From IMG/VR virus record IMGVR_UViG_3300006805_000119, positions 1 to 28,886 of that record: 28,886 bases of DNA. The stretch is one strand, 5' to 3'. The DNA comes from a virus. Positions within the stretch are counted from its first letter, which is position 1. Every line of letters starts with the position of its first letter. The notes beneath the pieces were generated by a model, which was not told the origin of the DNA, searched no databases, and was given only the letters and a program-made list of their open reading frames with translations. Made by a program: the position numbers and the translations under genes. This document shows, one piece after another, positions 1 through 28,886 of this stretch.

Positions 1-11
1 GTGTCGGGCCA
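1..11. repeat. Left copy of 11-bp terminal direct repeat (cos candidate)
   Basis: The first 11 bases, GTGTCGGGCCA, are identical to the last 11 bases of the window. Joining the ends at this repeat gives CGTGG-7 nt-CCACG, a 5-bp dyad centred within one base of the repeat centre. Staggered nicking by a lambda-type terminase, followed by fill-in of 5' overhangs, would leave exactly this kind of short repeat at both ends. The GpA/Nu1-type terminase genes next to it fit that reading. An assembly overlap is the alternative, though 11 bp is shorter than usual assembly k-mers. Confidence 0.75.
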
Positions 12-554
12 CGCGTGACGTAGGGGGGGTGGTAAGAGATTCCTTTTTTTCAACGAACGGAGGATTAGCACGCAAAAAAGGGCCAATTCCTCGTCAGTTA
101 GCGCTCCTTTGAACTGATTGGCTGCCGGTGTCAGCCATTGGAAGTTGTTGCTATGATCAGTTCCACCACGAGAGGCAGGGACTACGTGATCTGCGTGCGC
201 AGTACGGTCTAGCTTAACGTCAGTTAGGGCACACCTTCCCCTCTGCTTTATCCATTGACGCATAAGCCCAATGGCTAACTCGTTGGTAGACTCCATTGAG
301 ATGACGCCGCGCTTATGCGCCTTGATAAGCATGGCCTTGTTGTAAAAGAAGCGACGATCGGTCCATGCCTTCTTCATGACCTTATGCCTGGCTTTGTTCT
401 TGGTTCTCCACTTTGCGTTATCAGCCAACTTCTTATCAGGGTTGCTGTCGTAGTTAGCCTTGGCCCTAAGACGGTTAACCTCACGCAAGCGCTCTTTGTT
501 CCTGTAGTAATACTGCAATCCTTTGGACCTTTTATCTGTTGGGACTCTTTGCAT
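1..554 (-). CDS. HNH endonuclease, partial at the window edge
   Basis: An ATG at 554 opens a frame that stays open to base 1 (184 codons). Joined at the terminal repeat, it continues for 15 more codons in 28830-28875 and ends at TAA 28830-28832, giving 199 residues. The first 60 residues are rich in Lys and Arg. Around residues 122-149 is a classic HNH core: DH (122-123), PxSxGG, N137, Q139, N146 and K149. There is only one Cys (C108) where zinc-binding HNH proteins have paired Cys. Phage HNH proteins beside the terminase are known to stimulate terminase cleavage at cos, and the position here is right. The gene looks less GC-rich than the rest of the genome. Confidence 0.88.
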   Translation of the reverse strand, partial: MQRVPTDKRSKGLQYYYRNKERLREVNRLRAKANYDSNPDKKLADNAKWRTKNKARHKVMKKAWTDRRFFYNKAMLIKAHKRGVISMESTNELAIGLMRQWIKQRGRCALTDVKLDRTAHADHVVPASRGGTDHSNNFQWLTPAANQFKGALTDEELALFCVLILRSLKKRNLLPPPLRHAWPD

Positions 555-556
555 GG

Positions 557-1066
557 TTACTTGATAATTGGCTTATTCTTGCCGCGTCTGGCATTCACAT
601 GAGGAAACAAACCGCACGCGTCTGAGTTCACGGTGCGCTGGATCTCCTTCGCCCTGGCACGCATCCAGAAGTGGGAGCGTCCATACATCTTCCCGATCAG
701 GCGAGACGACAGACAGCCGGGCAGACTGAGCGCCCAGCGGATAAGCTCGACGTGGCGACGGAAGGCGAAGTTATCCGTGCAGGCCAGCGCATCCATGAAG
801 CCCTTGAGCATCACGCCGACATGATCGCGAGAGATGAATGCGTCGACCTCCTCGCGTCTGCCAAGGTCAGTAGGGTTGAACGCCCAGTCAGGATGATTGG
901 CGTCGATGTTGAAGACGTGCCGAGGTTGCGCCATCTCAGCGTAAGGCAGTACGCCGTTCTCGCGCATCTTCTCTTGGACCTTCTTCGGCTGCGCAAAGAA
1001 CCAAGCGTCAAACGACTTGGCCTCCTTAGCCGGAGCCGTCAGGTCGTTGAGCCTAGCGCGTGTCAC
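557..1066 (-). CDS. Hypothetical protein, possible C-terminal HTH
   Basis: This is a 169-residue protein from a GTG start, 11 nt after the preceding gene's stop. I do not recognise the family. The middle (about residues 65-110) is rich in aromatic and charged residues. Residues about 115-145 (LPGCLSSRLIGKMYGR…) read like a helix-turn-helix followed by a basic helix, and the C-terminal tail is Arg/Lys-rich, so DNA binding is possible. It sits between replication genes and the HNH gene that precedes the terminase. A late-gene or packaging regulator would suit that place, but no diagnostic motif supports it. Confidence 0.6.
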   Translation of the reverse strand: MTRARLNDLTAPAKEAKSFDAWFFAQPKKVQEKMRENGVLPYAEMAQPRHVFNIDANHPDWAFNPTDLGRREEVDAFISRDHVGVMLKGFMDALACTDNFAFRRHVELIRWALSLPGCLSSRLIGKMYGRSHFWMRARAKEIQRTVNSDACGLFPHVNARRGKNKPIIK

Positions 1067-2957: not shown

Positions 2958-3398
2958 TCAAGATGCTTTGCGTAGGAGACGGTCGAGGTCTGACTTGCGG
3001 TAGTAAGGGACTGAGCGGGGATTGCGGAGGATGCGGAAAGGGATGGAGGTGCCGTCGATGCGGTATTGCACGCCGCGGACGGTGCGCCGGTGCTTGTGCG
3101 CATACTCGGAGAGGGTGACCCATCCGGCGGGGGCCTTGAACTTCTCGAGGGCTTCAGCTGCGGCCTTGGCGGCGGCCCAAGACTTGAACCTGGGCGACAG
3201 GCGATAGATGAAGCGGCCTCGGCGGATGGTCTTCTGCTCGGCGTAGCCCGCCTTGACGATGCGGGCGAGCGGCAGAGAGACACCGGCCCGGGTCTTGTAG
3301 CCTAGGAGGCGGACGACCTCATTCGTCTTGTGCCAGCCTTCGGGAGTGTCGTCGGCGTTGATCGCGGCGACGAGGGCGTGGGCGTCGAAGCGCTTCAT
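2958..3398 (-). CDS. Winged-helix / MerR-like DNA-binding protein
   Basis: This is a 146-residue basic protein with two likely DNA-binding modules. Residues about 20-68 (TNEVVRLLGYKTRAGVSLPLARIVKAGYAEQKTI, then RGRFIYRLS) look like a winged helix with a wing. Residues about 92-143 (GWVTLSEYAHKHRRTVRGVQYRI … YYRKSDLDRLL) look like an excisionase/MerR-type HTH. Its start overlaps the phosphoesterase stop by 4 nt and the helicase follows 40 nt later. A replication initiator or helicase loader is a reasonable guess from context, and a transcription regulator is the alternative. Confidence 0.72.
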   Translation of the reverse strand: MKRFDAHALVAAINADDTPEGWHKTNEVVRLLGYKTRAGVSLPLARIVKAGYAEQKTIRRGRFIYRLSPRFKSWAAAKAAAEALEKFKAPAGWVTLSEYAHKHRRTVRGVQYRIDGTSIPFRILRNPRSVPYYRKSDLDRLLRKAS

Positions 3399-4159
3399 CG
3401 GGCCTTCGGGGTGAAGACCTTGAGGTCGGTGGTCCAGACCCAGCGGGAGCCGACGCGGTGGACGAGCCAGACCTTCCAGTCCTTGCCGTCGACCCAGCCG
3501 GCGGCGAAGCCTGAGCCCCAGCGGGAAGTGGCTAGGCGATGCGACGCGTATGCCATGGCGTCCTTCTGGCAGAGACAGCCGGCGGAGAAAGCGGCGCCGC
3601 CTTCGGCCTTGGTCAAGTTGACCTGGGCGAGCGTGTGCGTGTGGCCGTGGATCAGAGCGCCGCCGCGGTCGGCGTAGTGCTTGCCTTGCTCGGCGGTGGC
3701 GTTCAGGCCGTGGGCGTAACCATGGATGAAGGCGACCTGACCTAGCCGGTAGACACCCTTCTCGGCGTGGTAGGGGAGGATGGTCTTGGCTCCGCAGCTC
3801 TTCGCGGTGGTCTTGATGCGGGCCTCTAGGTCGGCGCAGTAGTCGCGTACCAGGGCGGAGCCGGAGGTATGCTGGAGGGCTTGGGCGCGGTGCTCGTGAT
3901 TGCCCATCAGGTAGACGGTGGGCTTCGTGCGCTCAAGGAAGGCTTCACCGGCCTCGATGTCGGAGATGAGGGACTCAGCGCCTTCGGCATCCTGCCCGGC
4001 TCCACGGCGCAGCGATCGGAAGTCGAAGCAGTCGCCGAGGTGGACGCGGACGGTCGGCTTGTAGTCCTTGATGAACTCGACGAGGGCCTCGACGGCGTTC
4101 TCGTCGGCCATGTCGCCGTGGTTATCACCGAAGGCGACGAAGCGGGTTGGGGTGCTCAT
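3395..4159 (-). CDS. Calcineurin-like metallophosphoesterase
   Basis: This 254-residue protein carries the full metal-binding set of the calcineurin-like family: GDNHGD (11-16), LGDCFDF (41-47), GNHEH (86-90), HGYAH (146-150) and HGHTH (171-175). Such enzymes hydrolyse phosphoesters at a two-metal centre. Phage members may act on nucleotides, DNA ends or protein phosphates, and the substrate cannot be read from sequence. It overlaps both neighbours by 4 nt in the replication operon, so a role in nucleic-acid metabolism is likely. Confidence 0.9.
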   Translation of the reverse strand: MSTPTRFVAFGDNHGDMADENAVEALVEFIKDYKPTVRVHLGDCFDFRSLRRGAGQDAEGAESLISDIEAGEAFLERTKPTVYLMGNHEHRAQALQHTSGSALVRDYCADLEARIKTTAKSCGAKTILPYHAEKGVYRLGQVAFIHGYAHGLNATAEQGKHYADRGGALIHGHTHTLAQVNLTKAEGGAAFSAGCLCQKDAMAYASHRLATSRWGSGFAAGWVDGKDWKVWLVHRVGSRWVWTTDLKVFTPKAR

Positions 4160-26400: not shown

Positions 26401-26495
26401 AAGTTAAAAGGGGGGTGCGCCGCCCAGCCCACGCCATGAGTCTCTTCCTCCCACGACACTAAACGACGCACCCTTGCATATAGCGTGCCAAGGGT
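26401..26495 (-). promoter_or_regulatory. Structured gap between large terminase and gpW-like gene
   Basis: This gap holds two possible structures and no convincing gene. The first is a 7-bp hairpin ACCCTTG/CAAGGGT (26470-26495) over the terminase stop. The second is a longer-range GGGTGCG/CGCACCC pairing of its downstream arm with bases near 26415. The latter is followed by CCC and TTTT on the minus strand and could act as a weak terminator. A GGAGGAAG-preceded ATG at 26437 opens a 33-codon frame over the gpW-like gene, probably by chance. Confidence 0.4.
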
Positions 26496-28282
26496 CATGA
26501 CGGTTGCAAGTCGGTTTCGGCAGTTTCCCGCCCGGCGATACCCCAGCGGACGGCGGCCAAAAGCGCTAAGATTTCAGTATCGAGAGCATGGTTATCGCGC
26601 TTGCCCTGGGGAAGTATCCACATGGGCTTGCCCGTCCGCTTGTCCTTTACGCGGACTTCGGCGCTCAGCTGCTCGACGTACTCAGGGGTGGCGTCCAGCG
26701 CATAGGTCCAGACGCGGCGAGCCCGCAGGCCGTGCAGGAGGTCTTTGCCGGCGGTGGCCGAGTGGACGATCAGGATGGCGCGCTGCGGGATGCCAGGGAC
26801 GACGATAGACTGCTTCTCGGAGTAGAAGCGGCGGGTCGTGTTGCCAGACTTGTCGGTGACCGCGAAGTCGTCAGACCCTGAGCCCTTGGCCGTCTTCCAA
26901 TTGCGCTTGGCTGTCTCGCGATAGACCTCGGTCGTATTGTCGCCGGAGTCGACGAGGACAAGCGCATGATGGACGCCGTGCTGTTTGGCGAACGCTTCGA
27001 CGTTGCCCCATGAGTCGATGCGGGCGAAGGCCATCAGACGGCTATGCCCGGTCTTGGCCCATCGGCGGACAGTCACCCAGAAGTGGCCACGCTGGACGTC
27101 GACCCCCATCGTGCGGAAAGGGATGCTCCCGGGCACGGCGTCCTTCTGCTCGACTACGCGGGCCTTCGGGGTGATCGCGGCCTCGGCGTCCCAAGGGTCG
27201 GCCATCTTGTAGTTCGCGGCCTCGGCTAGGGCGGTAATCTCGCCGCCCTCTTCGCTCCAGGGCATGGCCAGCCGCTTCTGCTTAAAGATGCGCCGCGGCT
27301 CTTCGTCTCCGTATTGGTCGACGGACTCCTTGGCCTTGAGCATCAGCACGCCCAACTCGCCCCAGCTCATCGTCGCAAGGCTGTTCCAGTGCAGGCCGAT
27401 GTGCCCGGAGTTGGCGGCGACCGACGTAGCGACGAAGGTTCCGCGAGCGTTAGCCTCTAGTCGGCTTGCGTTCGTGTCAGGCAGCAGCGTGCGGCAGGCC
27501 GCGCACTCGTAGGTCGTGCCGACGCTGACCTTGTGCAAGTCCCATGTGCCGGTGGCCTTCGCGTCGAGAGGCAGCCTGACCTGCTCCCAGACCCATGGCT
27601 GGAGCGTGTCGCATTTGGGGCAACGCATATTCCAGTCCCGTTGGTCGGTCGTCTCGTGCAGCTGATGGAACTCCTGACCAGCCCGTCCGCCCTGGGATAG
27701 GAAGATGCGTTTGCCCATCCATCCGAACGCCGTCACGCGCGCGCTCAGTTCGGCCAAGTGTCCGGGCGGCGCCATCCAGCACTCGTCGGCGATGGTGTAA
27801 CGCAGGGACAGGCGCTGAAGGTTAGCCTCGTTCCAGATGCCGCGGCAGTAAAGCGTCATGCGGTCGAAGTCCGCCGTCGTCGAGCGGTCGAGGTCGTCGC
27901 CCGAGAGACGCGCCTTCACCGGCGGGCAGTTGTTCCAGACTGGGCGGAGGTAACGCAGGGCGAAGTCCTTGGCCTCGGGGTCGGTGGCCTGAAGCACCAT
28001 CGTCGGCCCAGGAGCGTTGGCGATGATGTGACAGGTGAGCAGGCGCGCAAAGAGGGACTTGCCCGATTGGATGCTGGCGAGGACGGTAAGGAGTTTCGTC
28101 TCTAGATCGGCGGCGATGCGTAGGGCTTCGGCCACCCAAGGCGTGCGCTCGGAGCGGAACGGCCCGGGCATCGGCGAGTCAGGGATGGCGTGGACGTTGG
28201 ACTCGAGCCACTCGACGACGTCGCCCGAGTCTGACGGACGCAGGACGTCACGGCCTACGCGGAGTAGGTCGGCCTTATTCAT
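26495..28282 (-). CDS. Terminase large subunit, GpA-like
   Basis: This is a 595-residue packaging motor/nuclease of the lambda gpA family. ATPase: Walker A-like ASIQSGKS (69-76), Walker B and Glu in TIADEC (163-168). A zinc ribbon follows: C221/C224 and C260/C263. The RNase-H nuclease half begins with GVDVQRG (393-399, D395) and carries a late acidic motif in DNHALDTEIL. GpA-type enzymes cut at cos sites, which agrees with the terminal repeat. The start overlaps the small-terminase end by 8 nt. Confidence 0.95.
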   Translation of the reverse strand: MNKADLLRVGRDVLRPSDSGDVVEWLESNVHAIPDSPMPGPFRSERTPWVAEALRIAADLETKLLTVLASIQSGKSLFARLLTCHIIANAPGPTMVLQATDPEAKDFALRYLRPVWNNCPPVKARLSGDDLDRSTTADFDRMTLYCRGIWNEANLQRLSLRYTIADECWMAPPGHLAELSARVTAFGWMGKRIFLSQGGRAGQEFHQLHETTDQRDWNMRCPKCDTLQPWVWEQVRLPLDAKATGTWDLHKVSVGTTYECAACRTLLPDTNASRLEANARGTFVATSVAANSGHIGLHWNSLATMSWGELGVLMLKAKESVDQYGDEEPRRIFKQKRLAMPWSEEGGEITALAEAANYKMADPWDAEAAITPKARVVEQKDAVPGSIPFRTMGVDVQRGHFWVTVRRWAKTGHSRLMAFARIDSWGNVEAFAKQHGVHHALVLVDSGDNTTEVYRETAKRNWKTAKGSGSDDFAVTDKSGNTTRRFYSEKQSIVVPGIPQRAILIVHSATAGKDLLHGLRARRVWTYALDATPEYVEQLSAEVRVKDKRTGKPMWILPQGKRDNHALDTEILALLAAVRWGIAGRETAETDLQPS

Positions 28283-28823
28283 CGGTGGAGAGGTCGGCCT
28301 TCACGCGGCGCACCCAAGCCTCGAGCACCTTCACGGCCTTCGCGGGGTTCTCGGGGTTGCACCCTTCGGCCACGTCGAGGGCCAGCTTGTCGAGGCGGTT
28401 GACGATGCCGGCGGTCATGTCGCGCATGGCCTCGGTCGCTTCCTTTGCGGAGATGTAATCCTTCGTCAGGATGAGCCGACGCTCCTGCTCTTCCTCGAGG
28501 GCGACGAGCGTCTTCAGGGAGGCGTTATAACTCGACTGGTACTTCCCCTGGTTCGGGTCGCCCCCTTCCATCGCGGCCTGCCAGACGCCACGCGCCCGAC
28601 TGACCAAGGTCCGATGTTCGCTGATCGTGTCAGCCAGGGAGCCGTCGTCGAGCTGCGCCGGTGCGGCCTTGGGTGCCGCGGCACGCTGCACGTTCGCCCG
28701 GGCTTCTCGCCACGCCCGAGCCGCGTCGATGCTGTCGGTCGGCATGCCTTCGCGTCGAAGGACTGAGATGCGTTGCGCGGTGACGCCGAGCGCCAAACCC
28801 AGTTCTGAGTTGGTTAGAGCCAT
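28275..28823 (-). CDS. Terminase small subunit, Nu1-like
   Basis: This is a 182-residue protein. The N-terminal HTH (TNSELGLALGVTAQRISVLRR, residues 4-24, then EGMPTD and a helix) matches Nu1-type small terminases that bind cosB. A linker rich in Ala/Pro follows, then long helices (SEHRTLVSRARGVWQAAME … SLKTLVALEEEQERRLIL) for oligomerisation. The C-terminal part (KVLEAWVRRVKADLSTDE) may contact the large subunit. It lies 6 nt after the HNH stop in the joined genome. Confidence 0.88.
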   Translation of the reverse strand: MALTNSELGLALGVTAQRISVLRREGMPTDSIDAARAWREARANVQRAAAPKAAPAQLDDGSLADTISEHRTLVSRARGVWQAAMEGGDPNQGKYQSSYNASLKTLVALEEEQERRLILTKDYISAKEATEAMRDMTAGIVNRLDKLALDVAEGCNPENPAKAVKVLEAWVRRVKADLSTDE

Positions 28824-28829
28824 GGTTTG

Positions 28830-28875
28830 TTAAACGGCCTGTTTTCTCTCTGTGACCCCACGAAAAACCTTCGTG
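28830..28875 (-). CDS. 3' end of the HNH endonuclease gene (wraps the ends)
   Basis: When position 1 is equated with 28876, the HNH frame reads on through here (…DTTKVFRGVTERKQAV) to TAA at 28830-28832. That leaves 6 nt before the small-terminase ATG at 28823. The clean stop and operon-like spacing are the best internal evidence that the two ends join. This stretch also holds most of a hairpin at 28854-28880. Confidence 0.7.
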
Positions 28876-28880
28876 GTGTC
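28854..28880. promoter_or_regulatory. Imperfect 11-bp hairpin beside the terminal repeat
   Basis: GACCCCACGAA pairs with TTCGTGGTGTC around a 5-nt loop, with one mismatch (7 uninterrupted pairs, then a mismatch, then 3 pairs). The outer arm enters the terminal repeat. It has no T-tract, so a terminator is unlikely. Its location next to the putative cos and TerS suggests a terminase-binding element or a packaging landmark, which is inference. Confidence 0.45.
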
Positions 28881-28886
28881 GGGCCA
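28876..28886. repeat. Right copy of 11-bp terminal direct repeat (cos candidate)
   Basis: This is an exact copy of bases 1-11. It lies 53 bp from the small-terminase start codon. In the joined molecule it falls inside the last codons of the HNH endonuclease gene. Its left edge runs into an imperfect hairpin at 28854-28880. This is the expected place for a cos site in phages with an HNH-TerS-TerL order. Confidence 0.75.

Follow-up and report, generated by a model that had tools for sequence, protein, structure and literature searches.

The window analysed here, the whole 28,886-nt stretch of record IMGVR_UViG_3300006805_000119, makes up a complete genome. An 11-bp terminal repeat, GTGTCGGGCCA, lies at positions 1-11 and 28876-28886, with no third copy in the 28,886-nt window. 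The genes and the cos-region elements listed in this paragraph, and AGGAATCTCTT below, are annotated on the minus strand. The right virion end carries codons 1 to ~185 of an HNH endonuclease gene (1..554; PF14279 HNH_5, 1.7e-5; PHROG 1035/6050), with its catalytic region at 105..242 (residues 105-150, QRGRC...DH..P...GG...N..W....N..K, from the invariant columns of A1 and A2). The neighbouring gene, g557 (557..1066), has no Pfam or PHROG match. At the other end lie the remainder of the HNH frame including its TAA, which is also the leader of the small terminase subunit (28830..28875), the small subunit TerS itself (28275..28823; PHROG 57, 1e-6) and a large subunit, TerL, of the lambda gpA type (26495..28282; PF05876 1.3e-28, PF20454 6e-19). 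The two repeat copies form the right cohesive end (1..11, TGGCCCGACAC on the coding strand) and the left cohesive end (28876..28886), flanked by a cos left flank (12..47, positions -36 to -1 from cos) and, just right of cos, by an inverted repeat, CCACGAAGGTTTTTCGTGG (28858..28876; folded, z -1.9). Verrucomicrobiota-like bacteria are suggested as the host group by matching MAG contigs of Opitutales, Opitutae and Verrucomicrobiota.

With one repeat copy removed, the minus-strand ORF running from 554 to 1 continues from 28875 to 28830 as a frame of 199 codons plus TAA, stopping 6 nt before the TerS ATG (28823). An open joined frame is by itself weak evidence, since every possible join yields some ORF; the decisive evidence came from junction-spanning contigs of relatives, which encode the same uninterrupted protein (identity 98% in L001, 91% in L004 and 67% in L006). 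On the coding strand the cut separates codon 181 (GCG) exactly from codon 182 (TGG) and leaves 18 codons; the opposite-strand cut falls 11 nt further along the frame and leaves ~14. The sequence-only reading had described an HNH gene split by the genome ends, with cos ~17 codons from its end, in the order HNH-cos-TerS-TerL, interrupted in virion DNA and made whole again when the genome circularises, and this description is supported.

Relatives were gathered from IMG/VR, with TerL identities of up to 98-99%. Contigs terminated exactly at TGGCCCGACAC or a near variant with 17 ends and ~26 starts (the latter counted after manual removal of duplicates), and further contigs spanned the 11-mer. Two complete genomes, G001 (29,554 bp, HNH-less) and G005 (28,976 bp, HNH-positive), have the same 11-bp ends as the window. 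Because >40 related contigs stop exactly at the 11-mer, on both sides, the genome ends are physical, and the 11-bp repeat is a real cos. The 11-mer is retained at both ends and was therefore read as an 11-nt 5' overhang, which fill-in would keep, where a 3' overhang would be trimmed. Fixed ends on both sides, the overhang polarity deduced from fill-in and a gpA-family TerL with ATPase and nuclease domains (PF05876, PF20454) agree with lambda-type cos packaging.

The window record is classed in IMG/VR as linear without end repeats, apparently because an 11-bp repeat is short, and further genomes of the same phage group are likely to have been overlooked by this classing. In distant relatives the 11-mer varies while its context stays the same, and contigs terminate at TGGCGGAGCAC in L231 and at TGGCCTGCCAC in L228; across L225-L240 the cohesive-end variants comprised TGGCGGAGCAC, TGGCCTGCCAC, TGGCTGGACAC, TGGCGCAGCAC and perhaps a 12-nt TGGCTCCGACAC. 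The TerS leader (28830-28875 in the window, and its counterparts in relatives) came in several unrelated types, GAAGGTTTTTC (hairpin), GGCTCTTTTTT, ACCTTTTCTTACG and AAAGAAAAGTGC, which precede similar TerS genes as if cassette-swapped. One record, IMGVR 3300042514_000940 (32,851 bp; L108 and L123), holds two cos copies ~28.2 kb apart with differing TerS-leader alleles, and is either an assembled mixed-origin concatemer or a chimera.

The cut leaves the whole coding sequence of the HNH nuclease domain on its upstream side, and the catalytic motif of this domain is intact (PF14279; invariant D122 H123, N137 and N146). A structure model built from the alignment reached pLDDT 76, and a single-sequence model pLDDT 50. 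The alignment model matched only generic HNH domains (Gme HNH 4h9d, Cas9 HNH), and such predicted matches do not discriminate between homing and packaging enzymes.

Among 69 distinct cos flanks, not randomly sampled, the HNH gene was present in 20 and absent in 49. In the HNH-less flanks g557 is the last gene before cos and usually ends 56 nt before it. Most relatives with 95-98% identical TerL were HNH-less at the cos site, and occupied and empty versions of one site thus occur in near-identical genomes. A search of the complete genome G001 with PF14279, PF01844 and a profile of the window HNH family detected no HNH gene, and no compensating HNH genes were found elsewhere in HNH-less genomes. 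With the gene absent from a complete genome and from most close relatives, packaging at a window-type cos does not need it, and the view of the HNH protein as a needed terminase helper was not supported. In every comparison made, the 5' insertion boundary fell at the same g557 codon, after ...GGCAAGAATAAG; the 3' boundary, common to the loci, lies about -36 from cos, at the left flank that is found with or without the HNH gene. For example, the 3' flank of L117 matched HNH-less L190 at 30/30 nt, and at 97% over 36 nt. Alignment of these flanks showed one fixed site with common boundaries, at which the gene is present or absent.

The history of the HNH gene was independent of that of the flanking genes. 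Between the window and L223, g557 was 99% and TerS 98% identical, and HNH 54%; L234 was 96% identical to the window in TerL and 43% in HNH, and L004 had 84% identity in g557 and 95% in HNH. Across 12 loci, identity rank correlations between HNH and its neighbours were 0.08-0.18 (Mantel p 0.07-0.21 for the values of 0.08-0.17), against 0.8-0.9 for the neighbours among themselves (g557-TerL 0.89, Mantel p 0.0002). These identities showed HNH alleles to be swapped, as far as the compared loci indicate, independently of both neighbours. In L238 the HNH gene (723-1163) is a decayed copy, with one nonsense change (GAG to TAG) relative to L237 across 572 nt. A metallophosphoesterase gene, g3395 (3395-4159 in the window), was a second exchanged gene, at ~92-100% or ~37% identity between close relatives.

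Within the cos left flank, AGGAATCTCTT (34..44) is the altered counterpart of a perfect palindrome, AGGAGTCTCCT, of HNH-less phages, and is a candidate homing target. The palindrome was found in 38/49 HNH-less flanks vs. 1/20 HNH-positive flanks; counted by distinct segments, the figures were 17/27 vs. 1/17 (Fisher p 1.6e-4, with shared descent ignored). In two HNH-positive types (L117/L141 and L007) the site was essentially unaltered.

Presence or absence at one site and independent alleles are marks of homing endonuclease genes, the palindrome difference may be another, and cutting and biased transfer are putative. The HNH gene is probably homing-endonuclease-like, free-standing and optional, lodged at a cos hot spot, between g557 and the cos site of a lambda-type phage with a gpA terminase. 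In a mixed infection, its enzyme would nick or cut the DNA of an HNH-less relative beside cos, probably at or near AGGAGTCTCCT, and repair of the cut genome would copy the HNH gene in; carriers would escape cutting through their changed site. Because the insertion abuts cos and, in the window lineage, carries no stop of its own before cos, its frame goes on past 36 bp of cos flank and the 11-nt cohesive end into the TerS leader, where it meets a stop that HNH-less phages have as well. In the virion, the gene is cut 14-18 codons from its end, and annealing of the cohesive ends restores it; the interruption is probably a harmless by-product.

The distribution and composition of the cos-crossing tail were examined across the family. 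The frame crosses cos in the window clade (14 HNH rows in one clade, support 100/100) and separately in L225 and L228; L229, L236 and L240 resemble cos-crossing alleles, with less certain cos positions. Other alleles stop before cos (L007/L234, L171, L192, L226, L227, L231, L232 and L239). Relatives whose HNH gene ends before the junction, which the sequence-only reading had named as evidence against a split gene, thus make up part of the family, and the split itself stands for the window clade, L225 and L228. Changes of this sort between crossing and non-crossing alleles fit neutrality.

HNH residues 171-199 matched HNH-less relatives at up to 93%, because the bases that encode them are those of the cos region. 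The last ~29 codons are cos-region DNA, carried by HNH-less phages too, and the bases at 28830..28875 are likewise the same in HNH-less relatives. The same frame was open for at least 12 codons before cos in 41/49 HNH-less flanks, and it stopped 18-27 codons past cos in the 35 HNH-less flanks that reach far enough. Pairwise differences on codon positions 1/2/3 were 29/19/52% in the HNH body and 27/45/29% in the 12 codons before cos of HNH carriers, and 34/40/26% in the non-coding HNH-less counterpart of this pre-cos tail; the post-cos part of the frame gave 32/24/45%, from six sequences and too short to decide. Conservation of the last codons as protein, which the earlier reading had proposed to check for the last ~17, was rejected: the same DNA occurs without the gene, and before cos the changes look non-coding, with no third-position excess. 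Frame-keeping was uninformative as a sign of selection, since HNH-less phages also maintain the spacing of elements. The final 14 residues of the structure model (171-184) were predicted to be disordered. The passage of the frame through the cohesive end is probably a by-product of the insertion place. The literature searches, which covered few subscription journals, yielded no gene that spans cos, so that absence is no proof. A coding frame can pass through a cohesive end, in several lineages, with no visible cost.

The main rival to homing, unlikely on balance though compatible with it, is a role of the HNH protein as a terminase accessory that helps to cut cos, like HK97 gp74, and sits at cos as its workplace, perhaps as a (partly) domesticated homing enzyme. 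In all HNH-positive loci examined the gene lies beside cos and TerS, at TerL identities of 50 to 99%, its catalytic residues are conserved, and gp74 promotes cos cutting in vitro (PMC9410871). A cos-related function would also explain why the gene is always at cos, even where TerL is only 50% identical, and the phage population exchanges other genes too, g3395 among them. However, the gene is missing from G001 and from most close relatives whose TerS, TerL and cos are almost identical, HNH alleles do not track TerS or TerL, and TerL has a nuclease domain of its own. Homology to gp74 was undetectable beyond the DH motif (hhalign probability 5.7%, 12 columns). More doubtful is a cos-specialised homing enzyme, one that would disable HNH-less competitors by cutting beside the packaging site and whose frame would have become fused to the cohesive end, the gene being complete only on joined genomes and having no clean loss without touching cos.

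A device in which the split itself matters, with full-length HNH protein made only after circularisation or from concatemers, is highly improbable. It draws on the crossing of the cut by the window lineage, by L225 and L228, and, less certainly, by L229, L236 and L240, but sister alleles stop before cos, the pre-cos tail has no protein-level constraint and varies with the leader type, and its modelled part is predicted to be disordered. The frame is, moreover, equally open in most HNH-less phages, with its spacing held without the gene. The codons for the catalytic domain all precede the cut, and no evidence supported the delayed or limited expression that had been proposed for the split gene. 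An assembly accident, with the HNH frame joined by chance, has next to no probability and was ruled out: the record's listing as linear and the shortness of the repeat would fit it, but >40 contigs, drawn from many metagenomes, terminate precisely at the window's 11-mer, two complete genomes share these ends, other contigs span the 11-mer with the same protein, and the chance expectation of the window's terminal repeat is ~2e-7.

Whether HNH genes adjacent to cos serve packaging or are mobile has been debated. One population here contains near-identical phages with and without the HNH gene; a single site has several unrelated alleles, the sequence of its empty form is known, and the homing and packaging views are therefore separable by simple experiments. 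The HNH-cos arrangement is real and well supported, and its main worth is as a test system for these two views.

Like the genes for HK97 gp74 and other terminase-associated HNH proteins, the window HNH gene occupies the right end of a cos phage genome, with cos and the terminase genes immediately downstream. However, the gp74 gene of HK97 stops 319 bp short of the right end and stays intact in the virion, whereas the window HNH gene overlaps cos. Unlike gp74, it is optional, and the packaging modules of close relatives do not regularly include it (absent from 49/69 flanks and one complete genome); it occurs together with a terminase of the lambda gpA type and with a 5' overhang, the latter deduced. 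HEG-like nucleases have been described at boundaries of genetic exchange, with a proposed HEG hot spot in the region upstream of HK97-type terminase genes and with likely targets at phage termini; for HK97, terminase help and homing need not be exclusive (Barth et al., 2023; PMC10448857). The window resembles the free-standing HNH genes near terminase genes or genome ends of that work in having a nuclease gene at an exchange boundary, and differs in the frame that runs through the cohesive end and in the empty site, several alleles and site difference found in one population. The interference endonuclease gp210 of phiPA3 (PMC11620839) is likewise an HNH homing enzyme of a phage, directed against a relative that infects the same cell, but it is intron-encoded, with an intragenic target, and laboratory-tested, whereas the target and effect proposed for the window enzyme are putative. 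In Skunavirus (PMC12724721), variable HNH genes were read as homing enzymes beside an invariant HrdP read as a packaging factor; every genome has HrdP, located between TerL and portal, whereas the cos-side HNH gene of the window is variable.
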